Shown: positions 3,501 to 61,711 of the stretch, one piece after another
How positions within the stretch are numbered: position 1 is the first letter of the stretch
How the letters are laid out: each line of letters begins with the position of its first letter
Source: Pseudomonadota bacterium
Lineage (GTDB): Bacteria; Pseudomonadota; Alphaproteobacteria; UBA2136; JASBTF01
Assembly: GCA_030148545.1 (NCBI GenBank)
Contig: JASBTF010000001.1
Coordinates: 1-64,000 of the forward strand
Length of the DNA: 64,000 bases
Direction of reading: 5' to 3'
Position numbers and translations under genes: made by a program
The notes under the pieces: model-generated
Told to the model about the DNA's origin: nothing
What the model saw: only the letters and a program-made list of their open reading frames with translations
Databases searched by the model: none

Positions 3501-6500
3501 ATGAATAACATAACGACCGCTACCCGAACTCAAAAAACCACAGCCGTGTGGAAAGCGTTGGCCTATGCCGCGCTGGGTGCGGGTGCGCTGTTTGCAGCAA
3601 CAGTTGCTAAAGCCCAAACATGGGGCACCGTGGCCACTGTAAGCGGTACCTTAGCCAATGGCCAAATGTGCTACACCGATGGCTTAGATATTATTTGCCC
3701 CAGCGGCACCCCATACTGGGATGCTACCAACAGCCGCCTTGGCCTTGGTACCACATCACCCATTGCCTTGTTTGATATTACGAACGAAAGCACCACAACA
3801 GAGTTTAACCTAGTACGTTATAGCAGCGCTGCCTCTGGCCCATCGTTTAATGGGTTTCATGCGCGCGGTACTGTGGCGTCACCAGCTACACTGCAATCGG
3901 GTGATGTTCTGTTTGCTTTTGGTGCAGGTGGGTATAACGGCTCTGCACTTACTACCACCCGTGCAAAAATTCAGTTTGCCGCAACCGAAAACTGGGTAGC
4001 CGGCACCAACGAGGGTGCGTCTATCCTCTTCCAAGGGACCAACACAGGCAGTGCCTCTCGCAGCACCTGGATGAGCCTAGTAGACGGTAACCTTGGTATC
4101 GGCACCACCAGCCCAGGCGCGCCTTTGCATGTGTATGACAGCACGGCAGAAATTCGTTTGCAGGATACAGGCACAAGCACCAGCAGTATTGCGAACCTGA
4201 TTTTTTATGATAATTCATCCGTTATGGGTCGTGTTGGCTATCCATCTTCAAGCCATGCTGACCTCGAAATATTAAATAGCGTAGCGGGTGGTGATGTTAT
4301 CCTTAGTCCTGGCGCCAGTGGCTTTGTGGGTATAAAAACAGCAGACCCAACTACAGCGCTAGAAGTAGACGGTACCGTAAGCGCAACTCAGGTGAACGTA
4401 AGCGGTACTATTTATGCAACAAACTTCAGTGGTGACGGCTCCGCCCTAACCGGCATTACAGCAGATAGTGCCTCCACCGCCAGCAGCTTGGTTAACGGCA
4501 CCACCAGTATTACCATTCCAAGTGCTAATGGCGAAATGCGTTTCGACACCGCAGGCTCCCGCCGCATGACCCTCGACATCAGTGGTAACCTGGGCATTGG
4601 CACCACAGCACCAGGTTCAAGCTTAACGGTGGCTGGTAATGTGAGTGCCACACAAGCTGTGCTGCTGCCTGATTCTAATGCTATTGGTGCCACTGTCATA
4701 CTGGACGTGAAACCAGCCTCAGGCTTTACGGGTGCGGTGAATGGTTTGCGTGTTAAGGGTACTGGTAATGTTGAGGCTGGTAGTATCGCGAGTGGAGATG
4801 ATACCCAGTTACTCAATATAGCTGGTGGCGAAACTTATAATACCGGTGCTAACATAATTATGTATGGTCCAAGCCATGCGCAAGCGGGTGACTTTTTATT
4901 CCGTATTGGCACCACTAATGTAGGCCGTATTGATAATATAGGTAGACACCATTGGTACTTACCGACCGATGGTACAGAGCTAATGCACTTAGACAGTGTG
5001 GGTTTGGATGTTAGTGGTATCGTAACAGCTACCAGCTTCAGTGGTGATGGCTCAGCCCTTACCAACATTGCCGCCTCCACCGCCAGCAGCCTAATTAACG
5101 GCACCACCAGCATTACCATTCCAAGTGCCAATGGCGAAATGCGTTTCGACACCGCAGGCGCTCGCCGCATGACTTTAGACACCAGCGGCAACCTCGGTAT
5201 TGGTACCACAAGCCCGGGGCAAGCTCTTGATGTGGCTGGCACGGCTCAAGCGAATCAGTTCTATGTGGAAGATGGGAATGCAGTAATTGACCGTACAAGC
5301 GGTGCGCTAGATCTACAAACATTTGCCGGTAACGACATTTTGTTATCTCCAGGTGGTAGCGTAGGTATTGGTACCACTAGTCCGGCTAGTTATTCAGCAT
5401 TTGCCAATCACCTAGTAGTTGCCGACACAGCAGGCGATTCGGGTATTACCATTGCTTCTGCAGCAACAGAACAAGGTGGCTTATACTTTGCCGATGGCAC
5501 CACGGGTGCAGCTGCATATGCTGGTTACCTAGATTATAATCACACGTCCGATAAGCTATTAATTGGTACCGCAGGCACAAACCAAGTAGCGGTTGATAGC
5601 GATGGTAACGTAGGTATTGGTACAACTACCCCATCTGCCAGCCTCACCGTAGTGGGTGGTGTAACGGCCACCAGCTTCAGTGGTGACGGCTCCGGCCTAA
5701 CCGGCATTGCAGCATCCACCGCCAGCAGCCTAGTTAACGGTACTACAAGCATTACTATTCCAAGTGCCAATGGCGAAATGCGTTTCGACACCGCAGGCTC
5801 CCGCCGCATGACTTTAGACACCAGCGGTAACCTGGGTATTGGTACCACAGCACCACAAACAGCACTGGAAGTAGCTGGTACAATTAGCACCACAGGCTTT
5901 TATCTGGAAGGTGCAGACGGCACAGATTATATCAACATGACAGCTAATGCGCTGCAGTTTAACCGTGGTGGCGGTTCAGGTAACTTTATTGATGTACGTG
6001 GCGTGGGCGATAGCCTTACTTTTCGCACCAGTAACGCTGGCGACCGTGATACAAACGCTGTTATTATAGCACCTGATGGTGATGTTACTGTAGCAGGTAC
6101 GTTAACAGCTAATGCCTTCAGCGGTGACGGCTCAGCCCTAACCGGCATTGCGGCTTCTACTGCCAGCAGCCTCGTTAACGGCACCACCAGCATTACTATT
6201 CCATCTTCAGGTGGCGAAATGCGCTTCGACACCGCAGGCTCTCGCCGCATGACACTCGATACTAGCGGTCGCTTGGGTATTGGTACAAGTACACCAACCA
6301 GCGCGCTTACCGTTGCTGGTGCGTCTCAGGTTGCTGAAATCCGTGATGGTGGTTATCTTATGCTACGCCCATCAGGTAATGCTTGGGATATGCGTTTGCA
6401 GGCCACTTCTACCCAACTAGACATTCTCTCTGGTGGTGCTTTGTCTGATCCAATTATGAGCCTTTTGCGTGATGGCAACGTAGGTATTGGTACTACTACC

Positions 6501-9500
6501 CCATCTGCCAGCCTTACTGTAGTGGGTGATGCAAGTATTTCCGATGGTGTAAATGTTACTGGTGGCAACCTTACCATTGGTACTTATGCCAATCCACGTA
6601 TTTGGATTAATAATAACGGTGGTACAGCGTCTACCCTAGGTATGGGTGCCGATAGTGGTGCTGTTTGGTTGGGTAGCACTACTGCGAGTCCTCTATATTT
6701 CATGACAAATAGTAGCGAGGTAGCGCGCTTCACCGCCAGCGGTAACCTAGCTATCGGTACCACAACCGCCGGTGACGAGCTTACCGTTGTGGGCTCCATT
6801 ACAGCACGTGAAAGTGATGATGGTAACGATGCTGTTAAGTTGTTGTCTGGTAGTAGTTCTGGTGCGGTGCAGGTTTTTGCAAATGGCACACAAACAGTAA
6901 ATATTAGCGGCAATAGCAACCCTTCTTACTTTACTGCCAGCAATGTAGGTATTGGCACCACAGCACCAAATGCAGAGCTAGAAGTAGCCGGTACCGTAAG
7001 CGCAACTCAGGTGAATGTAAGCGGTACTATTTACGCAACCAGCTTCAGCGGTGATGGTTCTGGCCTAACCGGCATTGCGGCTTCCACCGCTAGCAGCTTG
7101 GTTAATGGTACCACCAGCATTACTATTCCAAGCGCCAATGGCGAAATGCGCTTTGATACCGCGGGCTCCCGCCGCATGACTTTAGACACCAGCGGTCGCT
7201 TGGGTATTGGCACAGCCAGCCCAAATAGCTTGCTACATGTTTCTGGTGGTACGCTAAGGTTTGATAGTGCAAATGCCATCGACTTTGCCCGTAGTGGATA
7301 CGATGTTATGTCCATTTACCAATCTAACCCAGGTGGTGGTGCAGGCTTAGGTGTTTATAATGAAACCGATACTGCCTACAGAATGTTTATTAAAGAGGAT
7401 GGCAACGTAGGTATTGGCACCACCAACCCAGGTCAGCTGCTGGACATTAGTGGTAGCGGCTCGGGTGAGCAAGGGGTGCGTGTGGTGAATGGCTCTGGTG
7501 CACTTACTGTTCGGGCTGGTGCAGGCAGTGGCGGCTATGGGTTGATTGAGTCCAGCGGTACCAACGGTATGATTTTGCGCACGGCCGATGCGTCTTCCCT
7601 ACAGCTTGGCGCTAATGGCGCAACCAATATTACGATAAATAGCGCCGGTAATGTAGGTGTTGGTACCGCTAACCCAATTTATCCGCTAGATGTTAGTGGT
7701 ACGCTGCGTGTAGGTAGTCGCAACAGAACAACTTCTTCTGTTGCCTCTGTGCTTACTGGGTTGAGCGATTATGGACCAGCAGCTCAAATACGTAGTTATA
7801 GCGATGGAGGTTGGGCACGGTTGGACTTTAACCACCACCTAGCTTCTGACTCAGCTTTCTTGATACAAGATAGTAGTGGTAATTTTACCTTACGTAATGA
7901 CTCTACAGGCCACCCATTTATTGTACGTAACTCCTCTAGCGAGCTTATGCGTGTTAACAGCAGCGGTAACGTAGGTATTGGTACCACCAGCCCATCTGCC
8001 AGCTTAACTGTGGTAGGCGGTATTACGGCCACCAGCTTCAGCGGTGATGGCTCCGGCCTAACCGGTATTGCGGCTTCTACTGCCAGCAGTCTTGTTAACG
8101 GCACCAGCAGCATTACCATTCCATCTTCAGGTGGTGAAATGCGCTTCGATACTGCAGGCTCCCGCCGCATGACTTTAGACACCAGCGGTAACGTAGGTAT
8201 TGGTACCACCACGCCAGCGCGTAAGTTTGTGGTGCGCGATACAGGTGCGCAGCTTTCCATCCGCTCCGATGATGGTCAAAGCTCGGTACTGAATTTGGGT
8301 GATGCTAGCGATGATAATATTGGTCGTATTGAGTACGATAATGGTAACGACTCCATGGCTTTCCGCACCAACGCTGCCGACCGTGTAACAATCGATAGCA
8401 GCGGTAACGTAGGTATTGGCACCGCTGCGCCAAGTAGTGAGCTTCATATAGATGGCGGCACTGGTACAGGCGAGGTTATTGTTTCCTCTGGTGCTGCTAA
8501 CTACGACGCTATTGTGACATTCATGGACAGTTCTAACGTTAAGCAAGGTTTTATAGGGTATGATGAAAGCCAAGATACAGTTGGTTTGTTCCACGACACT
8601 ACTTTTGCTGGTTCCACAAGTGGCCTTGTGCTTGATAATAGCGGCAACGTAGGTATTGGTACTGCTACCCCAAGTGCCAGCTTAACCGTGGTAGGTGGTA
8701 TTACAGCTACTAGCTTCAGCGGTGATGGCTCCGGCCTAACCGGTATTGCGGCTTCTACTGCCAGCAGCCTAGTTAACGGCACCAGCAGTATTACTATTCC
8801 AAGTGCTAATGGCGATGTACATATCGATGCCGGCGGCAGCCGTGTGGCAGTGTTCGACACAGCTGGTCAGCACGTAATTACTGGTAACCTAGGTGTGGGC
8901 GACAATAGTCACTCTACAAGTAACCTGTCTGGCCAAGGTATTGTGATTTCCAATAATGACGGTGGCGCTGTAGGGCGCATGCGTTTTGATGCAGAAAATA
9001 TTACTTCTGGTTATAATACGCGTATTGCACAAACCAATAGTGGTTTTGAGTTTGAGAGCGCAAGCGATAGCCGTCCAATTATTTTCGAAACAGGAAGTAC
9101 GTTAGCCGAGCGTATGCGTATTGCTAATGCAGGCGTAGGTATTGGTACTGCCAGCCCAAGCAGTACACTCCACGTGTATGATTCAGCGCAAGAGGTTGCT
9201 TATTTCTCAGGTTCTGGCCATAAGTTTGTCCGTGTTGAAAGCACCAGTGGTGGCGCTATTCAGTATCGTATGAAATCAGATAATGGTAATCGCCGCTTTG
9301 TGGCAGAAACAAATGCCGGCGTACCAGAAACTCAGTTGGTTTTTGGTAATACCAGCATTGACTTGCTGGGTGATTCTAGCTCAGCTGAATTTGCCTCTTT
9401 TGATGCTACAGGAGCAACAGTTTCTGGTACACTAACAGCCACCAGCTTTAGCGGTGATGGTAGCGCCCTAACCGGTATTAGCGCTTCCACAGCCAGCAGC

Positions 9501-10697
9501 TTGGTTAACGGCACCACCAGCATTACTATTCCAAGCGCTAATGGCGAAATGCGTTTCGACACCGCAGGCTCCCGCCGCATGACGCTCGACACCAGCGGTA
9601 ACCTCGGTATTGGTACAGCTAGCCCAAGCGCTGCTTTGCATGTGGCTGCCAGCAGCAATGTAGCTATGATTGAGCACACAGCAACGTCTAACATTCCAGC
9701 GCTAACGGTGCGTTCCAACAACGCAAGTTACGATGGTCTTATTCAGTTTGCTCGTGGCACAGCCTACCAGTGGTATGCGGGTATTCGCGGTGCTAACTCC
9801 GACTTTGTGATTGATGATGCTACCGTAGGCAGCACAGCATTTATGATTGATGCGGGTACGGGTAACATTGGTATTGGTACAACATCTCCAAGCGGTGCAT
9901 CTCTAACAGTTGCCGCCTTGGGTACCGATGTTATGCGCCTGAACCGTGCCGATACTGGCCAGTCATGGGACTTTAACCTATCTGCTAATGACCTAAACTT
10001 CCAAGATGCAACGGGTGGCGGTAATGTAATGACCTTAACCAACAGCACAAGACGTGTAGGTATCGGTACAACCGATCCAGCGCATAACTTGCAAGTTCAG
10101 GCAGCTGGTGGTGCATCGTTCACCGTGGCCGGTACAGTAGATACCGATGATCCATCCATTAACTTGTTCGAGCTGTTTAACAGCACAGGTAGTAACGCAA
10201 CTGGTTTTGAAATGAGCTACGAAGGTACTGGTAACACGCTAGATTTCGTACCGTGGACCACAGGCGCCCGCGGCTCTGTAGCGATGAGTATTGAGCGTAA
10301 TACTGGTGAGGTAGGTATTGGTACCACCACACCAAGCTATGACCTGCATGTAAATGGTGTAGCCGCTGGTACCGCGTGGGTTAACTTGTCCGATCGTACC
10401 TTTAAGGAAAATATTACCGATGTAGCAGACAATGCGGCTCTGCAAAGCGTACTGCGCCTGCGTGGTGTAACGTTTGAGTGGAAAGACCAAGATGCCGCGC
10501 ACATGCAAGGCACCAAGTATGGTTTCATTGCGCAAGAGGTTGAGGAAGTGCTGCCAGAAGTGGTTGTAACAGCCGACGATGGCACCAAGAGCGTAGACTA
10601 CGTAGCAGTGGTGCCGGTACTGGTAGAAGCGCTGAAAGCGCAGCAGGCTCAAATTGATGAGCTACGAAAAGAGCTCGAAGCACTCAAATCTGAATAG
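3501..10697 (+). CDS. Giant secreted tail-fibre-like protein with C-terminal peptidase S74 chaperone
   Basis: This 2,398-residue protein has a Sec signal peptide (residues 1-38, cleavage after AKA). A Cys-containing N-terminal segment follows (about 55-70), similar in style to the C-terminus of the upstream protein. The body holds about twenty (V/L)GIGT-x-x-P motifs and eight copies of a roughly 57-residue cassette from GDGSxLT to GIGTT. The C-terminus is an intramolecular chaperone of the endosialidase type (peptidase S74). SDRTFKENI has Ser2297 and Lys2302 at the spacing of the catalytic Ser/Lys dyad, followed by YGFIAQEVEEVLPE and a final coiled coil. Family members trimerise a beta-helical stalk and then cleave before the Ser, here releasing about 102 residues. 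An AAGGA run precedes the ATG. It is probably a trimeric surface fibre or adhesin. I see no capsid or baseplate genes beside it. Confidence 0.88.
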   Translation: MNNITTATRTQKTTAVWKALAYAALGAGALFAATVAKAQTWGTVATVSGTLANGQMCYTDGLDIICPSGTPYWDATNSRLGLGTTSPIALFDITNESTTTEFNLVRYSSAASGPSFNGFHARGTVASPATLQSGDVLFAFGAGGYNGSALTTTRAKIQFAATENWVAGTNEGASILFQGTNTGSASRSTWMSLVDGNLGIGTTSPGAPLHVYDSTAEIRLQDTGTSTSSIANLIFYDNSSVMGRVGYPSSSHADLEILNSVAGGDVILSPGASGFVGIKTADPTTALEVDGTVSATQVNVSGTIYATNFSGDGSALTGITADSASTASSLVNGTTSITIPSANGEMRFDTAGSRRMTLDISGNLGIGTTAPGSSLTVAGNVSATQAVLLPDSNAIGATVILDVKPASGFTGAVNGLRVKGTGNVEAGSIASGDDTQLLNIAGGETYNTGANIIMYGPSHAQAGDFLFRIGTTNVGRIDNIGRHHWYLPTDGTELMHLDSVGLDVSGIVTATSFSGDGSALTNIAASTASSLINGTTSITIPSANGEMRFDTAGARRMTLDTSGNLGIGTTSPGQALDVAGTAQANQFYVEDGNAVIDRTSGALDLQTFAGNDILLSPGGSVGIGTTSPASYSAFANHLVVADTAGDSGITIASAATEQGGLYFADGTTGAAAYAGYLDYNHTSDKLLIGTAGTNQVAVDSDGNVGIGTTTPSASLTVVGGVTATSFSGDGSGLTGIAASTASSLVNGTTSITIPSANGEMRFDTAGSRRMTLDTSGNLGIGTTAPQTALEVAGTISTTGFYLEGADGTDYINMTANALQFNRGGGSGNFIDVRGVGDSLTFRTSNAGDRDTNAVIIAPDGDVTVAGTLTANAFSGDGSALTGIAASTASSLVNGTTSITIPSSGGEMRFDTAGSRRMTLDTSGRLGIGTSTPTSALTVAGASQVAEIRDGGYLMLRPSGNAWDMRLQATSTQLDILSGGALSDPIMSLLRDGNVGIGTTTPSASLTVVGDASISDGVNVTGGNLTIGTYANPRIWINNNGGTASTLGMGADSGAVWLGSTTASPLYFMTNSSEVARFTASGNLAIGTTTAGDELTVVGSITARESDDGNDAVKLLSGSSSGAVQVFANGTQTVNISGNSNPSYFTASNVGIGTTAPNAELEVAGTVSATQVNVSGTIYATSFSGDGSGLTGIAASTASSLVNGTTSITIPSANGEMRFDTAGSRRMTLDTSGRLGIGTASPNSLLHVSGGTLRFDSANAIDFARSGYDVMSIYQSNPGGGAGLGVYNETDTAYRMFIKEDGNVGIGTTNPGQLLDISGSGSGEQGVRVVNGSGALTVRAGAGSGGYGLIESSGTNGMILRTADASSLQLGANGATNITINSAGNVGVGTANPIYPLDVSGTLRVGSRNRTTSSVASVLTGLSDYGPAAQIRSYSDGGWARLDFNHHLASDSAFLIQDSSGNFTLRNDSTGHPFIVRNSSSELMRVNSSGNVGIGTTSPSASLTVVGGITATSFSGDGSGLTGIAASTASSLVNGTSSITIPSSGGEMRFDTAGSRRMTLDTSGNVGIGTTTPARKFVVRDTGAQLSIRSDDGQSSVLNLGDASDDNIGRIEYDNGNDSMAFRTNAADRVTIDSSGNVGIGTAAPSSELHIDGGTGTGEVIVSSGAANYDAIVTFMDSSNVKQGFIGYDESQDTVGLFHDTTFAGSTSGLVLDNSGNVGIGTATPSASLTVVGGITATSFSGDGSGLTGIAASTASSLVNGTSSITIPSANGDVHIDAGGSRVAVFDTAGQHVITGNLGVGDNSHSTSNLSGQGIVISNNDGGAVGRMRFDAENITSGYNTRIAQTNSGFEFESASDSRPIIFETGSTLAERMRIANAGVGIGTASPSSTLHVYDSAQEVAYFSGSGHKFVRVESTSGGAIQYRMKSDNGNRRFVAETNAGVPETQLVFGNTSIDLLGDSSSAEFASFDATGATVSGTLTATSFSGDGSALTGISASTASSLVNGTTSITIPSANGEMRFDTAGSRRMTLDTSGNLGIGTASPSAALHVAASSNVAMIEHTATSNIPALTVRSNNASYDGLIQFARGTAYQWYAGIRGANSDFVIDDATVGSTAFMIDAGTGNIGIGTTSPSGASLTVAALGTDVMRLNRADTGQSWDFNLSANDLNFQDATGGGNVMTLTNSTRRVGIGTTDPAHNLQVQAAGGASFTVAGTVDTDDPSINLFELFNSTGSNATGFEMSYEGTGNTLDFVPWTTGARGSVAMSIERNTGEVGIGTTTPSYDLHVNGVAAGTAWVNLSDRTFKENITDVADNAALQSVLRLRGVTFEWKDQDAAHMQGTKYGFIAQEVEEVLPEVVVTADDGTKSVDYVAVVPVLVEALKAQQAQIDELRKELEALKSE
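4431..9624 (+). repeat. Eight in-frame copies of a ~172-bp module inside the S74 gene
   Basis: Near-identical modules start at 4431, 5043, 5682, 6123, 7050, 8043, 8721 and 9453. Six of them (5043, 5682, 6123, 7050, 8043, 9453) span exactly 172 bp by my count. The first is slightly longer and the seventh is degenerate in its second half. Each encodes GDGSxLTxIAASTASSLVNG, then TSITIPS, GEMRFDTAGSRRM and a GIGT motif. All start-to-start distances are multiples of three, and unique sequence of varying length lies between copies. Looser relatives occur in the upstream gene. Confidence 0.9.
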
Positions 10698-11325: not shown

Positions 11326-11412
11326 ACCCCTAGAAAACCATACTCGCCCCCCAACTGGCAAGCGAAAAGCCCTCTAGGTTGTTGCGGCTATGTTTTAGTA
11401 TGGTGGCCGCTG

Positions 11413-11497
11413 TCCCAAGCTGCCGTAAGGCAGTTGGTCAGCGCGGATCCAAGGTGCCCTTGGTGGCAAGGGGTGGCTTTGCCACCCCCGCAGCCAT
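11413..11497. repeat. Dispersed palindromic intergenic repeat, copy at 11.4 kb
   Basis: Two hairpins lie just beyond the stop of the coiled-coil membrane protein gene: CTGCC-GTAA-GGCAG (11420-11433) and a TGGCAA...TTGCCA palindrome. The 35 bases 11463-11497 match 55315-55349 with three mismatches and no gap. In both places the copy ends a few bases beyond the stop codon of a minus-strand gene. Confidence 0.75.
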
Positions 11498-11499
11498 CT

Positions 11500-12276
11500 T
11501 TAGAACGACTTCCAACAGTGGGCAATCGTTTCGCCTTTTTTGTTAAGGGCGGTAATGTCCAAAATACGTAGGCCACTGCTTGGTACATCGGCCTTAAAGC
11601 TGCCGGTCGTGCGTACGTCGCGCACCATGGCAATATCTTTGGTGGCCAATACTGGCGAGCCATGGTCAGCTTCTAGCTCACCATCGGCCAGTAACGCTTC
11701 ACCAACACGTACCCGGAACTGGACTTTAGCCTCCACCCGAGCGCGGTCTTTTTGGTTGTTTTTCATAAAGTTAACACCATAGGTAACGGTGCTGCCGCTG
11801 TGCTTGGCGCTAATGTTAAAGCACTGCAAGGTGGCTTTATTGTTCCCCGGCTGCATGAAGGATTCATAAAACGCATTCTGCCGCGTCAGCTGGAACACTT
11901 CATCTTCCAGTGCTTGCAAACGGCTGATAGCTTCCAAACGAGCGGTCTCGGCCATGGTAATGCGTGCTTCAGCCGTCGCGCGAGATTGCTGCTCTTCGGT
12001 CAGTGTTTGGCGACTGGTATGAAACTCCTCCCGCAGCTTAGTAAGCTCGGTAGACATGCGCTCAACTTGTTTTGCAAGCGTGCTGGCGCTGCGCTTGGCT
12101 TGTTGCGCATCATCGTTAAGAATGAGCGGCGCAAATACCAACAAACCCAGCACAAATCCCAGTACCGGTACCCCAATAAAGGCTGTTATGAGCCACACTA
12201 ACCGCTGGCGGGTTAGGCGGAATGAGCGTGGTTGTTTATCGGTACGCTCAGCCTCCATGAGGATAACGGTGAACAT
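11500..12276 (-). CDS. Inner-membrane coiled-coil protein, DUF6776-like
   Basis: The 258-residue protein has a basic N-terminus, one membrane segment (about residues 28-52), then a long coiled coil (about 58-135) with many Gln, Glu and Arg residues, and a C-terminal beta-rich domain in the periplasm ending IAHCWKSF. The segment FYESFMQPG between coil and domain resembles the DUF6776 family as I remember it. In gammaproteobacteria that family sits beside bactofilin genes, and a bactofilin gene lies 3.5 kb away here (15841). The start codon is 2 bases from the galU stop with no clear ribosome site of its own, so it is probably translated by coupling to galU. An envelope-shape or polysaccharide role is inference. 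Confidence 0.6.
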   Translation of the reverse strand: MFTVILMEAERTDKQPRSFRLTRQRLVWLITAFIGVPVLGFVLGLLVFAPLILNDDAQQAKRSASTLAKQVERMSTELTKLREEFHTSRQTLTEEQQSRATAEARITMAETARLEAISRLQALEDEVFQLTRQNAFYESFMQPGNNKATLQCFNISAKHSGSTVTYGVNFMKNNQKDRARVEAKVQFRVRVGEALLADGELEADHGSPVLATKDIAMVRDVRTTGSFKADVPSSGLRILDITALNKKGETIAHCWKSF

Positions 12277-18911: not shown

Positions 18912-19735
18912 TGCCGCAGCACATTACTTTAGCTAAGGCTACAGCCGTGCTCAGCGGTGTGGGTGTACATAGTGGGGAGCCGTGCACCGCACAGGTATTA
19001 CCACGTGATACGGGTGGGATTGTGTTTCGCCAAAATGGGGAAGAGCTTGCGCTATCACCAAATGCAGTGGCCGACACACGTAATGCCACCACCATAGCGA
19101 GCCGTAACGTACGCATTGGCATGGTGGAGCACGTATTGGCAGCCTTAGGTGCCAGTGGCATTACTGCCGCCACTGTGGAAGTAACAGGGCCAGAAGTGCC
19201 GATTATGAGCGGTGCCAGCGCCGAATGGATGGATGCTTTGGCCGCAGCAGGCACCAGCATGCTAGATGAGACATACACGCCCATTGATCTCAGCACGTTG
19301 GGGCTAGATTGTGAGGCACTGGGTATTGAAGTTGCCTCCGCTGAGGCATTGACGCTCACGGTGGTGCAGCAATTTAATCATCCGCTACTGACGGCTGATA
19401 CCTTTAGCGCACCAGTACAAGCCGATGTTTTCGCGAGCAGCATTGCCAATGCACGCACTTTTGCCTGGGAGAAAGACATTGAGAAGCTTCGCGCCGCAGG
19501 GCTCATTAAAGGCGGCAGCCTAGGCTGTGCGGTAGTGTTTGGCGAGACAGACGTGGTCAACGACGACGGCCTGCGCTACCCGGATGAACCACTACGCCAC
19601 AAATGGCTAGATCTATTAGGTGATTTACAGCAGGTAGGCACACCACTTACCGGCCACCTCACCGTGCACAACCCCAGCCACACCAAAAACCACCAAATTG
19701 TATTAGCGATATCAGAGTGCTTAAATACTGGCTAA
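18911..19735 (+). CDS. lpxC: UDP-3-O-acyl-N-acetylglucosamine deacetylase, short divergent form
   Basis: LpxC catalyses the committed step of lipid A synthesis. The GTG start overlaps the upstream stop. Family landmarks are present: GVGVHSGEP near residue 16; EH at 73-74 (MVEHVLAAL), with Glu73 as general base and His74 as a zinc ligand; RHKWLD with His230 and Asp234, the other two zinc ligands; and His257 in PSHTKNH at the catalytic-acid position. The protein is 274 residues against about 300 in typical enzymes. The usual IMDGSA motif reads IMSGASAEW here, so an otherwise conserved Asp is a Ser. The usual place is the division/cell-wall cluster, whereas here it follows a DMT-type gene. Activity is likely because all metal ligands remain. 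Confidence 0.85.
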   Translation: MPQHITLAKATAVLSGVGVHSGEPCTAQVLPRDTGGIVFRQNGEELALSPNAVADTRNATTIASRNVRIGMVEHVLAALGASGITAATVEVTGPEVPIMSGASAEWMDALAAAGTSMLDETYTPIDLSTLGLDCEALGIEVASAEALTLTVVQQFNHPLLTADTFSAPVQADVFASSIANARTFAWEKDIEKLRAAGLIKGGSLGCAVVFGETDVVNDDGLRYPDEPLRHKWLDLLGDLQQVGTPLTGHLTVHNPSHTKNHQIVLAISECLNTG

Positions 19736-19770
19736 GCCAGTGTGGGATAGCGAAAAACGCTAAAATATAC

Positions 19771-19799
19771 TTGACGCTGTGGATAAGTTGGTGCATACA
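19771..19799 (+). promoter_or_regulatory. Candidate rpsA promoter
   Basis: TTGACG, 17 bases, then CATACA. A start near 19806 would give a leader of about 190 bases that includes the repeat at 19827 and the hairpin at 19908. Confidence 0.4.
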
Positions 19800-19826
19800 G
19801 ACCGCGCTGATGCGCTGTATAAGCGC

Positions 19827-19894
19827 AAAAAAGGATTAAGTATCCTTTTTAGGCAAGAGTCCCGGAGACTGACCTTTAGGTCATGTCGGAGGAT
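19827..19894 (+). repeat. Dispersed ~68-bp structured repeat in the rpsA leader
   Basis: It contains two hairpins, AAAAAGGAT-TAAGT-ATCCTTTTT and TGACCT-TT-AGGTCA, within a conserved frame. The same sequence recurs at 55237-55304 without gaps, with about seven substitutions, most of them between the hairpins. Here it lies in the presumed 5' leader of rpsA, about 100 bases before the ATG. It may be a mobile palindromic element or an RNA structure. Confidence 0.85.
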
Positions 19895-19907
19895 GAAAAT
19901 AAGCATG

Positions 19908-19929
19908 CCTAGTGCAAACCGACACTAGG
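19908..19929 (+). promoter_or_regulatory. Hairpin in the rpsA leader
   Basis: CCTAGTG and CACTAGG pair around an 8-base loop, 66 bases before the rpsA ATG. There is no T run, so it is not a terminator. It could be part of autogenous control of S1, by analogy with other rpsA leaders. Confidence 0.4.
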
Positions 19930-19995
19930 GTTCGACCATCGCCAAACGCGCTGGGATTGATGAAAACCTCGGTAGATAAAAGAGAGACTATCTCT

Positions 19996-21861
19996 ATGTC
20001 AGATAATCATATCCATCCTCAACCAGATTTGCAGAGCGCCGGTATTACACCTGCGGAAATTAAAGCTGCTATGGATGCGGATTTTACCAGTAAACTCGAT
20101 GAAACCTTTGCCCCGCACCAAACTGTGCGCAGCCAAGTTGTTAAAGGCCTAATCACCAACATTGATGGTGAGTTCGCTATTATCGACATCGGCATGAAGG
20201 CAGAAGGTCGTATTCCTCTAAAAGAATTTATCGAATTTGGTAAAGAAGAAGCGGAAATTGAAGTTGGCCAAACTGTAGATGTGTACGTTGAAAACCTCGA
20301 CGACCGTCATGGTGAAGCACAGCTAAGCCGCGAAAAAGCACGTCGTGAAGAAGTGCTGGACGACCTAGAGCGTGTACACGCTAAGGAAGAAACTGTTGAA
20401 GGTATCATCTTCGGCCGCGTTAAAGGTGGCTTCATGGTAGATGTACAGGGTATTCTTGGCTTTATGCCAGGCTCCCAGCTGGATGCACGTCCAATTATGG
20501 ACGTAAACCCATACATGTACACCCCGCTGGAAATGATGATTGTTAAGCTCGAGCGTGAGCGTAACAACGTTATTGTTTCTCGCCGTGCCGTAATGGACAA
20601 ACGCAACGCTGGTACTCGCGACGAGCTGTTGAATGACATGCACGAAGGCCAAGTACTAGAAGGTGTTGTGAAGAACATCACCGACTTTGGTGCGTTTATT
20701 GACCTTGGTGGTGTTGATGGCTTGCTGCACATTACCGACATTGCATGGCACCGTATTGGTCACCCAAGTGAAGTGATCAAGCTGGGCCAAACTCTGGAAC
20801 TGAAAGTTGTTCGCTTTGATGAAGATAGCAAGCGCGTAAGCCTTGGCTTGAAGCAACTGAGCGATGACCCATGGACCAGCGTGAACGACACCTACCCAAT
20901 TGGTGCAAAAGTAAAAGGTAAAGTTACCAACATTACCGATTACGGTGCCTTTGTTGAGCTTGCTCCAGGTGTTGAAGGCTTGATTCACGTAAGTGAAATG
21001 AGCTGGACCCGTAAGAACGTACACCCAGGTAAGATTGTTTCTACCTCTGAAGAAGTGGAAGTAATGGTACTAGAAATCGACCACGATAAGCGTCGTATTT
21101 CATTGGGTCTCAAGCAAGTACAAAGCAACCCATGGGAAGCTTTTGCTGAGCAGTTCAAGGTTGGTCAGGAAGTATCCGGCCAAGTTCGCAGCGTGACCGA
21201 CTTTGGTGTATTTGTTGGCTTGACCGACGACATCGATGGCCTGATCCACGTAAGCGACCTGAGCTGGGACAAGAGCGGTGAAGAAGCACTGGCGGATTAC
21301 CGCAAGGGTGACACCGTAAGCGCTAAAGTGCTCACCATCGATCCTGAGAAGGAGCGTGTAGCACTGGGTGTTAAGCAGCTGAGTAACGATCCGTTCACCA
21401 GCTTTGCTGAAACCAACACCAAGGGTGACATTCTTAAAGTGAACGTAACCGACGTATCTCTGGATGGTCTAACTGTAGACGCTAGTGGTATTGAAGTGTT
21501 CATTAAGAAGCGTGACCTAGCGGTTGAGCGTGACCAGCAAGATCCACAACGCTTTAAAGAAGGCGAAACTATTGACGCGAAGCTGGTAAACATCAGCACT
21601 AAAGACCGTCGTGTGGTGCTTTCTATCCGTGCGTTGGAGATTGATGAAGAGCGCGAAGCTGTTGCTGAGTTTGCAAGTGATGAAGGTGGTACCTCCACAC
21701 TGGCAGATGCTCTGGGCAGTGCGCTAAAATCTTCAGACACTGAAGAAGCAAAGCCAGCTAAAAAAGCTGCAGCGAAGAAATCCACCGCCAAAAAAGCGGC
21801 TAAGAAGGATGACGACGCTGAAGCTAAGTCTGAGGAAGCTTCCGCAGACGCAGCTGAGTAA
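19996..21861 (+). CDS. rpsA: 30S ribosomal protein S1
   Basis: S1 binds mRNA on the small subunit and helps start translation. The ATG at 19996 (MSDNHIH) is preferred: the frame upstream runs through the structured leader. Six S1 (OB-fold) domains follow in order, recognisable by VKGLITNIDGEF, VEGIIFGRVKGGFMV, VLEGVVKNITDFGAFI, VKGKVTNITDYGAFV, VSGQVRSVTDFGVFV and the weaker ILKVNVTDVSLDG. After the sixth domain comes an acidic linker and a tail alternating Lys/Ala (AKKAAAKKSTAKKAAKK) and Asp/Glu. The total is 621 residues. A strong terminator follows. The basic tail is similar in style to those on NhaA (29092) and the protein at 25465. Confidence 0.97.
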   Translation: MSDNHIHPQPDLQSAGITPAEIKAAMDADFTSKLDETFAPHQTVRSQVVKGLITNIDGEFAIIDIGMKAEGRIPLKEFIEFGKEEAEIEVGQTVDVYVENLDDRHGEAQLSREKARREEVLDDLERVHAKEETVEGIIFGRVKGGFMVDVQGILGFMPGSQLDARPIMDVNPYMYTPLEMMIVKLERERNNVIVSRRAVMDKRNAGTRDELLNDMHEGQVLEGVVKNITDFGAFIDLGGVDGLLHITDIAWHRIGHPSEVIKLGQTLELKVVRFDEDSKRVSLGLKQLSDDPWTSVNDTYPIGAKVKGKVTNITDYGAFVELAPGVEGLIHVSEMSWTRKNVHPGKIVSTSEEVEVMVLEIDHDKRRISLGLKQVQSNPWEAFAEQFKVGQEVSGQVRSVTDFGVFVGLTDDIDGLIHVSDLSWDKSGEEALADYRKGDTVSAKVLTIDPEKERVALGVKQLSNDPFTSFAETNTKGDILKVNVTDVSLDGLTVDASGIEVFIKKRDLAVERDQQDPQRFKEGETIDAKLVNISTKDRRVVLSIRALEIDEEREAVAEFASDEGGTSTLADALGSALKSSDTEEAKPAKKAAAKKSTAKKAAKKDDDAEAKSEEASADAAE

Positions 21862-21879
21862 GCTTGCACCTATAGCGAA

Positions 21880-21906
21880 AAGCCCCCGCAGTGCGGGGGC
21901 TTTTTT
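21880..21906 (+). terminator. rpsA terminator
   Basis: AGCCCCCG-CAGTG-CGGGGGCT stem followed by TTTTTT. Confidence 0.9.
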
Positions 21907-22887: not shown

Positions 22888-22921
22888 CAAAAAGGCACCC
22901 CAGGGCGGGGGTGCCTTTTTG
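22888..22921. terminator. Bidirectional terminator
   Basis: AAAAAGGCACCCC and GGGGTGCCTTTTT arms around a short loop. The stem is nearly the same as the one at 23536. Confidence 0.8.
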
Positions 22922-44230: not shown

Positions 44231-44265
44231 GCACAAAAAAGGCGCCACTGGCGCCTTTTTTGTGC
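44231..44265. terminator. Strong bidirectional terminator
   Basis: GCACAAAAAAGGCGCC and GGCGCCTTTTTTGTGC are almost perfectly complementary around CACT. Confidence 0.9.
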
Positions 44266-55052: not shown

Positions 55053-55174
55053 TCAGGCACTGCACCAGCGCGTCTAAATGCATCGCAGAGAAGTTTTTAA
55101 TTGAATGACTATAAATTTACCTATTCAAAATTTCTAGCCATTGGACAGTTTGTAAAAATAGACTTTGCGGGCCG

Positions 55175-55240
55175 CCATCCCCAGCTCGCAGTGCGAGTGG
55201 GTTGGCGCGGGGACCGAGCTGTTATGGCAAAGCCATAAAA
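55175..55240. repeat. Dispersed palindromic repeat, inverted copy
   Basis: The 31 bases 55175-55205 match 61664-61694 on the opposite strand with one mismatch (core CTCGCAGTGCGAG). A TTATGGC-AAA-GCCATAA palindrome follows at 55223-55239 and abuts the next repeat. Confidence 0.8.
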
Positions 55241-55304
55241 AAGGATTAAGTATCCTTTTTAAGTGAGTGTCCTGGAGATTGACCTTTAGGTCATGTCGCA
55301 GGAG
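55237..55304 (+). repeat. Second copy of the rpsA-leader repeat
   Basis: Ungapped match to 19827-19894 with about seven substitutions; both hairpins are intact. This copy also gains an outer TCCTG/CAGGA pairing around the TGACCT stem. It lies between converging mnmE and coaE, so here it cannot act as a 5' leader. Confidence 0.85.
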
Positions 55305-55314
55305 GGTGTCCCCA

Positions 55315-55349
55315 GTGGCAAGGGGTGGCTTTGCCAGCCCCGTAGCTAT
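55315..55349. repeat. Second copy of the 11463 repeat
   Basis: 35-base match to 11463-11497 with three mismatches, including the TGGCAA...TTGCCA palindrome. It sits just past the coaE stop. Together with the elements at 55016, 55175 and 55237 it fills most of the 386-base gene-free stretch 54976-55361. Confidence 0.8.
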
Positions 55350-56732: not shown

Positions 56733-57314
56733 ATGAGCACAAAACAGTTACGCGCAGTAAAAAATGCCGGTATTGCTACCGATGAAATGATTTTGGCTGC
56801 CGCTATGGTAACCAGCTTTGGGGTATTTAGCTATGTGGCTGTGCCATGGGATAGCCTGCTACAGTCTACCGCTGTACGCATGGTTGACCAGTTTACACAA
56901 ATTGAAGAAGCAAATAGCGAATTTTACGGCATGTACCGTATGTGGCCACACCAAATGACCAATGGTAACTGGGCTAACAACGCTTCTGCTCTGAGCACCA
57001 AGCAAGCGCTAACCTTCCCCTACAACAATATGTCCACCTTTACTGCTGCACTGCCAGACTCTGCGTATGAAGTAAGCCGTGAAGGTGTTTCTTTGCGCCA
57101 CGATTTTGGTGCCGGTGGCCGTATTATGCAGCGCCCAGTAACCCTGCCAGGCGGTGGCGGTTACATTGAAGTAATTTTTGAAGACGTGCCATTTAGCGAA
57201 GCGCGCAAAGTAGATGAAGTAATTGATGGCGCTTACGACCCTGATAATGGTCGTTTAACCATGGGCTTTGAAAATGATCGTGTGACGATCTATTACCAAG
57301 CCAACATGCTGTGA
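56733..57314 (+). CDS. Prepilin-like exported protein (193 aa)
   Basis: GGAAAG lies six bases ahead of the ATG. The N-terminus fits a type IV prepilin signal: a short basic head (residues 1-12), Gly13, then IATDE with Glu at +5, and an uninterrupted hydrophobic helix (about residues 18-37) like the pilin spine. The mature head is rich in Asn, Gly, Tyr and Pro, with Pro-Gly turns (LPGGGGYIEVIFEDV), a Trp/Met-rich start (YGMYRMWPHQMTNGNW) and no Cys. No pilus machinery genes are near. It could be a minor pseudopilin, or a protein whose membrane helix only imitates one. Confidence 0.6.
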   Translation: MSTKQLRAVKNAGIATDEMILAAAMVTSFGVFSYVAVPWDSLLQSTAVRMVDQFTQIEEANSEFYGMYRMWPHQMTNGNWANNASALSTKQALTFPYNNMSTFTAALPDSAYEVSREGVSLRHDFGAGGRIMQRPVTLPGGGGYIEVIFEDVPFSEARKVDEVIDGAYDPDNGRLTMGFENDRVTIYYQANML

Positions 57315-61078: not shown

Positions 61079-61171
61079 ACGTCCTGATTTTTTTGTTTAC
61101 TCTGGTTACCGCAAATGGCTTTTGGGGGCAAGTTGTTTGCGTGTATTTTGTTGCTGTTTTATAGTGTAGTC

Positions 61172-61597
61172 ATGAGCTACGACATTATTAAAGCCCTCCA
61201 CCTTATTGCTGTTATTGCTTGGTTTGCTGGGCTGTTTTATTTGCCGCGTTTGTTTGTGTACCACGTGGATGCACCCAACAAAGCCGCTAAGGAAATGCTC
61301 ACCACTATGGAGCGTAAGTTATACCAATTTATTATGATGCCAGCGATGGCCGCAACATGGGGCTTTGGTATTTGGTTGCTGGTGCTTAACCCGGGCTGGC
61401 TTGAGTTTGGTTGGTTGCACGCCAAACTAACACTGGTTGTGCTGCTTACTGGCTATCATCACAGTTTAAAATACTTCCACAAGCAGTTGGCTGCGGGTAC
61501 GTGCAAGCGTAGTGGTAAGTTCTTCCGCCTATGGAACGAGGTGCCAACACTGGTGCTCATCGCAGTGGTGTTTTTGGTGCTGCTTAAACCATTTTAG
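61172..61597 (+). CDS. hemJ: Protoporphyrinogen oxidase HemJ
   Basis: HemJ oxidises protoporphyrinogen IX in bacteria without HemG or HemY. The ATG at 61172 (MSYDIIKALHLIAVIAW) matches the usual start; the frame extends 57 bases further upstream without family similarity. The protein (141 aa) has four to five helices, FAGLFYLPRLFVYH with the conserved His, and the C-terminal RLWNEVPT motif. It is divergent from hemC. Confidence 0.93.
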   Translation: MSYDIIKALHLIAVIAWFAGLFYLPRLFVYHVDAPNKAAKEMLTTMERKLYQFIMMPAMAATWGFGIWLLVLNPGWLEFGWLHAKLTLVVLLTGYHHSLKYFHKQLAAGTCKRSGKFFRLWNEVPTLVLIAVVFLVLLKPF

Positions 61598-61618
61598 GGT
61601 TTTGGTTTGCTGTCGCGG

Positions 61619-61694
61619 TCGGCAAAGCCGCCGCTTGGCACCAGGATGTGTCCTGGACCTCCACCAACCCACTCGCGCTGCGAGCTGGGGATGG
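61619..61694. repeat. Dispersed palindromic repeat, copy at 61.6 kb
   Basis: Three palindromes in order: CGGC-AAA-GCCG, CCAGGA-TGTG-TCCTGG (61641-61656) and CTCGC-GCT-GCGAG. The last 31 bases match 55175-55205 in inverted orientation with one mismatch. It lies between converging hemJ and the cupin gene. Confidence 0.8.
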
Positions 61695-61711
61695 TGATAA
61701 CGATGCTGATA

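Follow-up and report, generated by a model that had tools for sequence, protein, structure and literature searches.

REPs are single hairpins of 20-40 bp that carry a GTAG or CGTC tag (PMC3733652, PMC12306157). Their termini often provide the TAG stop codon of neighbouring ORFs (PMC3733652), and E. coli REPs located within 15 nt of a stop codon can lower translation (PMC12306157). In alphaproteobacteria, CGTC repeats predominate and have no dedicated transposase (PMC3733652, PMC12306157). BOX, RUP and SPRITE of Streptococcus pneumoniae are structured, modular repeats that nest, supply the stop codon of the preceding gene and, in the case of BOX and RUP, are mobilised by IS enzymes (PMC3049150). 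The CIR repeats of Caulobacter and Brucella are intergenic, about 100-200 bp long, contain a conserved GANTC and are made of separate arms joined by a linker (PMC2229807). Finally, the RPEs of Rickettsia are small palindromic repeats of about 105-146 bp found in small alphaproteobacterial genomes, within ORFs as well; each is one long stem-loop (PMC2229807).

The window (the whole stretch of 64,000 nucleotides analysed here) belongs to a draft genome of 1,141,067 bases, about 86% complete, in which model searches revealed two families of folded repeats, A and B. Together they amount to about 80 copies across this small genome of 1.14 Mb. Like REPs, A and B are many-copy, extragenic, imperfect palindromes near gene ends. 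They differ from REPs in being untagged, multi-hairpin elements of 90-110 nt: a GTAG or CGTC tag is present at an end of 0 of 19 A copies and, either end considered, of at most 5 of 60 B copies. A further difference is the RAYT/Y1 transposase that the GTAG type has. A search of the 86% complete genome for Y1 transposases (PF01797) gave no match, while positive controls matched. With BOX, RUP and SPRITE, A and B share a structured and modular character, nesting and the supply of stop codons, but the host is unrelated, the modules are others, and no counterpart of the mobilisation by IS enzymes was found. Separate arms joined by a linker, an intergenic position, a similar length and a probably alphaproteobacterial host are shared with CIRs, from which the elements differ by the number of arms; GANTC is found in 2 of 19 A and 4 of 60 B copies. 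The host was assigned to the alphaproteobacteria, as the probable class, on the basis of its mnmE relatives and its gene content. RPEs occur in comparable genomes, but A and B are multi-hairpin. On the tested features, A and B therefore belong neither to REPs nor to CIRs. In contrast, there is good support for the view that they work in the manner of REP/BOX-type mobile repeats. Together with a third type, C, they are probably REP/BOX/CIR-like non-autonomous palindromic mobile elements with a strong preference for gene 3' ends.

The elements are dispersed, nested, non-coding and shorter than 200 bp, as are MITEs. As to terminal inverted repeats, A has closing stems and the hairpins of B are separate. 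Overlap with predicted genes is limited to 2 of the 60 B calls. None of 4227 Rfam covariance models reached its gathering score, and at a lax threshold no match fell on the elements. A reading as integron attC sites was also considered. Hairpins of attC also sit at stop codons, but A and B occur as lone, scattered copies beside housekeeping genes of either chromosome strand, and this reading was rejected.

Extent, fold and covariation of elements A and B

The initial annotation described a 68-bp element in the rpsA leader that recurs 35 kb away with both hairpins intact. Gap-free alignment of 19827-19893 with 55237-55303 indeed gives 60 identities out of 67 (7 mismatches), the second copy is recovered in the genome search with E = 4e-20, and both hairpins are intact in both copies. 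The repeat is thus real; its 68-bp limits were too narrow, the conserved unit being 19800-19895. The same annotation would have been refuted by a genome containing just two copies without compensatory change, a condition that clearly does not hold. A whole-genome sequence search matched 12 places, and R1, a covariance model of family A built from nine copies, retrieved 19 copies with E values from 6e-23 to 7e-10. The 68-bp sequence is the core of element A. Its two copies in the window are as follows.

19800-19895, plus strand: element A, first copy, full extent, between lpxC and rpsA; R1 95.5 bits, E 3e-20, and fold
55212-55305, plus strand: element A, second copy, full extent, inside a B element; R1 104.4 bits, and alignment

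Element A is 94-96 nt long, or about 110 nt in four copies, and has four helices. A closing stem GAC../..GTC encloses two hairpins. A third hairpin, interrupted by an asymmetric internal loop, comes after this stem; in the copy at 19800-19895 it reads GACTGACC TTTA GGTCATGTC. One hairpin of A, AAAAAGGAT..ATCCTTTTT, is flanked by T5 and could be taken for an intrinsic terminator. This reading was rejected: many copies have other stems in its place, either AACAACAAT..ATTGTTGTT or GC-rich stems without a T-run.

Across 18 aligned A copies, standard pairs make up 95.7% of the pair cells, and both partners have changed in 24 of 32 pairs. Shuffles reach a covariation score of 0.190 (sd 0.017), whereas the A alignment scores 0.585 and falls below 0.1 when the partners are slid. 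Fitting the alignment to the structure gives it an advantage, but the controls are nevertheless far away. The internal loop is retained across copies.

An all-against-all comparison of the loci exposed element B, a repeat of about 91 nt composed of three hairpins. In P1 there are an internal loop (TC/T) and a G bulge, P2 varies, and P3 terminates in GGCTTTGCC. About 60 clear copies were found in the genome with a model of B, R2; this number is a lower bound, since R2 scored 150 of 444 candidates. B is represented in the window by the following features.

11408-11496, plus strand: B without A; R2 94.4 bits; 3 nt between the P3 end and the stop codon of gene 11500-12276, on the minus strand
55173-55207, plus strand: P1 hairpin of the B element hosting the second A copy, from homology to other B copies
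55306-55348, plus strand: P2 remnant and P3 hairpin (GGCTTTGCC end) of the same host B, ending about 14 nt from the coaE stop codon
57321-57408, minus strand: B; R2 72.7 bits; P3 end 6 nt after the stop codon of gene 56733-57314
61608-61696, minus strand: B; R2 82.6 bits; P3 end 10 nt after the stop codon of gene 61115-61597 (UPF0093 family)

The B element split by A thus spans 55173-55348 overall. A hand alignment of 17 B copies has 97.6% of its cells paired, with double changes in 25 of 32 pairs and a covariation of 0.613, against 0.212 in shuffles. For A as for B the sequences are related, and the counts are not independent events. Covariation well above the shuffles indicates that the helices of both elements are kept by compensatory changes.

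R2 also matched a genome of another family of the same class, G075, and, weakly, its congener G131. A second B model including G075 copies matched G131 and G005, a member of the window's own order that was outside the training set, with best E values of 2e-7 and 5e-9, respectively. Under strict filters, B-like matches were found in 4 of 385 genomes in all. The three other genomes thus have B-like elements with a common fold at only about 50% identity. Mean identity is 0.47-0.57 among G000, G005 and the G075/G131 pair, and 0.61 between the two congeners; 95.6% of the pair cells are still paired. Within a genome, B copies are far more alike (up to 98% identical in G005, mean 0.85 in G075), which points to lineage-specific amplification. 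R1 gave no match at the B loci of the other genomes. Searches for the exact A-core pattern in genome and viral contigs, for the B P1 pattern in viral contigs and, by distant blastn, for the composite in plasmids and phages were negative.

For pairing maintained in an RNA from one strand, G-U is expected to be tolerated and A-C to be avoided. Among the 1799 pair cells of B there are 28 G-T and 40 A-C, or 26 and 20 without one fixed pair, and changed pairs are almost all Watson-Crick. G-T and A-C being about equally rare, B fits pairing kept at the DNA level. As a yardstick, tRNA stems gave 32 G-T in 399 pairs; their A-C cells could not be scored. In A, 17 G-T cells stand against 3 A-C, a hint of RNA-level constraint on that element.

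The compensatory changes might also result from arm-to-arm copying of palindromes by template switching during replication. Covariation would then be mutational in origin and uninformative on selection. The double changes, nearly all Watson-Crick with few one-sided intermediates, and the lack of strand bias in B would agree with this. However, bulges and internal loops would be expected to disappear under such correction. Instead, P1 of B keeps its TC/T loop and its G bulge from copy to copy, A likewise keeps its internal loop, and the TC/T loop and the GCTTTGC end of B persist even across genomes. Template switching could contribute to the covariation; as its explanation, we consider it improbable. 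Because B fits pairing kept as DNA and arm-to-arm copying would remove the conserved bulges, we favour small mobile palindromes that are read as imperfect single-stranded hairpins.

Nesting and composites

A is found inside B at the P2 position in six copies, plus one with just the 3' half of B. One A copy lies within a hairpin loop of another A (C1:578996-579162). Two A copies are also arranged tail to tail inside element C, forming a 280-bp composite present at two loci with 95% identity. C flanks the inverted A pairs at C3:258349 and C1:298675. A copies are most alike within the same kind of host context, and composites have therefore probably spread as units. The suggestion of a mobile palindromic repeat made by the initial annotation is supported by these dispersed and nested copies, by the 280-bp composite and by the lineage-specific amplification of B in other genomes.

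Element C is a third palindromic repeat type, AGTTTATGAGGATCGTGGAAACT...AGCCGATAGAAACT, that hosts inverted A pairs; it was seen at L017:3400-3550 (approximate limits), L019:2809-3088 and L020:3135-3414. In two B copies of G005 (L158:1845-1959 and L165:2218-2332), P2 contains about 25 extra nucleotides that form a small hairpin of their own. These extra nucleotides, together with A at P2 in the window's genome, make P2 an apparent favoured place of insertion.

Placement at gene ends

Genes were called by codon usage in this analysis, and about 87% of the window is coding. The stop codon is within 15 nt of the element for 38 of 47 gene ends facing the P3 side of B, against 4 of 40 facing the P1 side (p = 6e-8). 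Read in the direction of the gene, the reverse complement of B begins -3 to 14 nt past the stop codon. A T-rich stretch such as TTTAGAA or TTTGATA is usually just ahead of B and sometimes includes the stop codon. Host genes of B with Pfam support are dnaN, dksA, dnaJ, coaE and a gene for a ferritin-family protein; further host genes were assigned from their sequence alone. Among standalone A copies, 4 of 7 complete the stop codon of the preceding gene (T|GA or TA|G). The elements of G075 and G131 likewise come after stop codons, at 6-9 nt from ORFs of 305, 434, 423, 483 and 179 open codons, or after tRNA genes or terminators. One B-like copy of G005 follows a terminator.

This placement could mean a function at the 3' end, since the position of the elements relative to stop codons is precise and oriented. 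They would then be 3'-untranslated structures with a role in shielding mRNA ends, in assisting termination or in slowing ribosomes as these terminate, either spread by selection or co-opted afterwards. Besides the P3-side gene ends and the stop codons completed by A, the recurrence in G075 and G131 beside stop codons and tRNA ends argues for such a role, and REPs provide a precedent (PMC12306157). In addition, B occupies the positions where canonical terminators otherwise sit: in this genome these mostly end 25-50 nt past the stop codon. B-marked genes have no canonical terminator that close; a candidate is found further downstream in 13 of 38, in a longer scan whose chance hits were not controlled. 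The same pattern is consistent with insertion of B between stop codon and terminator. Several observations speak against the functional explanation. B hairpins have no T-run behind them, so they are not intrinsic terminators. Some copies, B in two cases, lie beyond a complete terminator and would hardly be part of the mRNA. B shows no excess of G-U over A-C. Finally, a small share of genes is marked, and composites and nesting look like spread rather than design. On balance, we regard a primary 3'-end function as rather unlikely.

The preferred reading is that of mobile elements. They would move as folded single-stranded DNA hairpins, probably recognised by a host recombinase or one since lost. 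Their targets would be the 3' ends of genes, whether stop codons, terminator ends or tRNA ends, and also one another. Copies would persist where harm is small. The counter-point is that neither a target duplication nor a mobilising enzyme was found in the 86% complete genome; aligned flanks show no clear target-site duplication, and no close relative offers empty sites. More speculatively, distantly related bacteria of one class may harbour a multi-hairpin mobile class that inserts in fixed orientation exactly at gene 3' ends, its machine reading folded single-stranded DNA or the RNA of the sense transcript. We hold this only as a tentative proposal.

Some further features of gene ends were noticed. 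Unlike the copies at stop codons, one A copy lies directly against a tRNA-Lys gene of the other strand, at its 5' end (L005:1441-1640 / L059:1425-1594). Near-perfect long inverted repeats with A and T runs follow genes at 21878-21904, 22888-22921 and 44231-44265; they look like bidirectional intrinsic terminators.

The rpsA and coaE/mnmE contexts

The position assigned to the first A copy by the initial annotation is correct, with the lpxC stop codon at 19735 and the rpsA start at about 19996. As to transcription of the element just ahead of the S1 gene, no sigma-70-like site turned up when 19700-20050 was scanned with a consensus. This copy starts 65 nt past the lpxC stop codon and is an exception to the stop-adjacent placement. 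It is also an isolated member of the family, 79% like its nearest kin. The second copy is not simply after mnmE. It sits in a B element, and about 14 nt separate the 3' end of this host B from the coaE stop codon, on the opposite strand.

The alternative offered earlier, an RNA element reused for regulation, is not supported. A before rpsA would be an RNA leader controlling S1 synthesis, for instance through binding of S1 itself. Such a leader would agree with the fold of this copy, which is intact and lies some 100 nt ahead of the rpsA start, and with the moderate G-T over A-C excess of A. However, R1 found family A in none of 17 other genomes of the order, so that A is not conserved at rpsA in these relatives and an ancestral rpsA switch is unlikely. 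A also occurs at unrelated genes, such as coaE and an amidase gene, no promoter was detected by the consensus scan, and nothing links the isolated rpsA copy to S1. An S1 leader thus appears very improbable. Rather than a dedicated S1 switch, the rpsA copy appears to be a further insertion of the element, located between lpxC and rpsA.

If the mobile-element reading is right, a small genome contains about 80 structured repeats, most of them beside stop codons in a fixed orientation, with strong covariation that for B comes without the usual RNA signature. It would be a clean system for asking how palindromic repeats devoid of a transposase spread and why they do so at gene ends, and also whether a stop-adjacent hairpin alters translation termination or mRNA stability. 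It would also be a warning that a covarying structure may stand ahead of a ribosomal gene as a repeat, without being a regulator.

Repeats of another kind are found within a coding region of the window. In a 2398-aa ORF (3501-10697), preceded by a related 1133-aa ORF, a unit of about 190 bp is directly repeated many times within 4338-9651, with up to 90% identity between the repeats. The product looks like a large repetitive surface protein.
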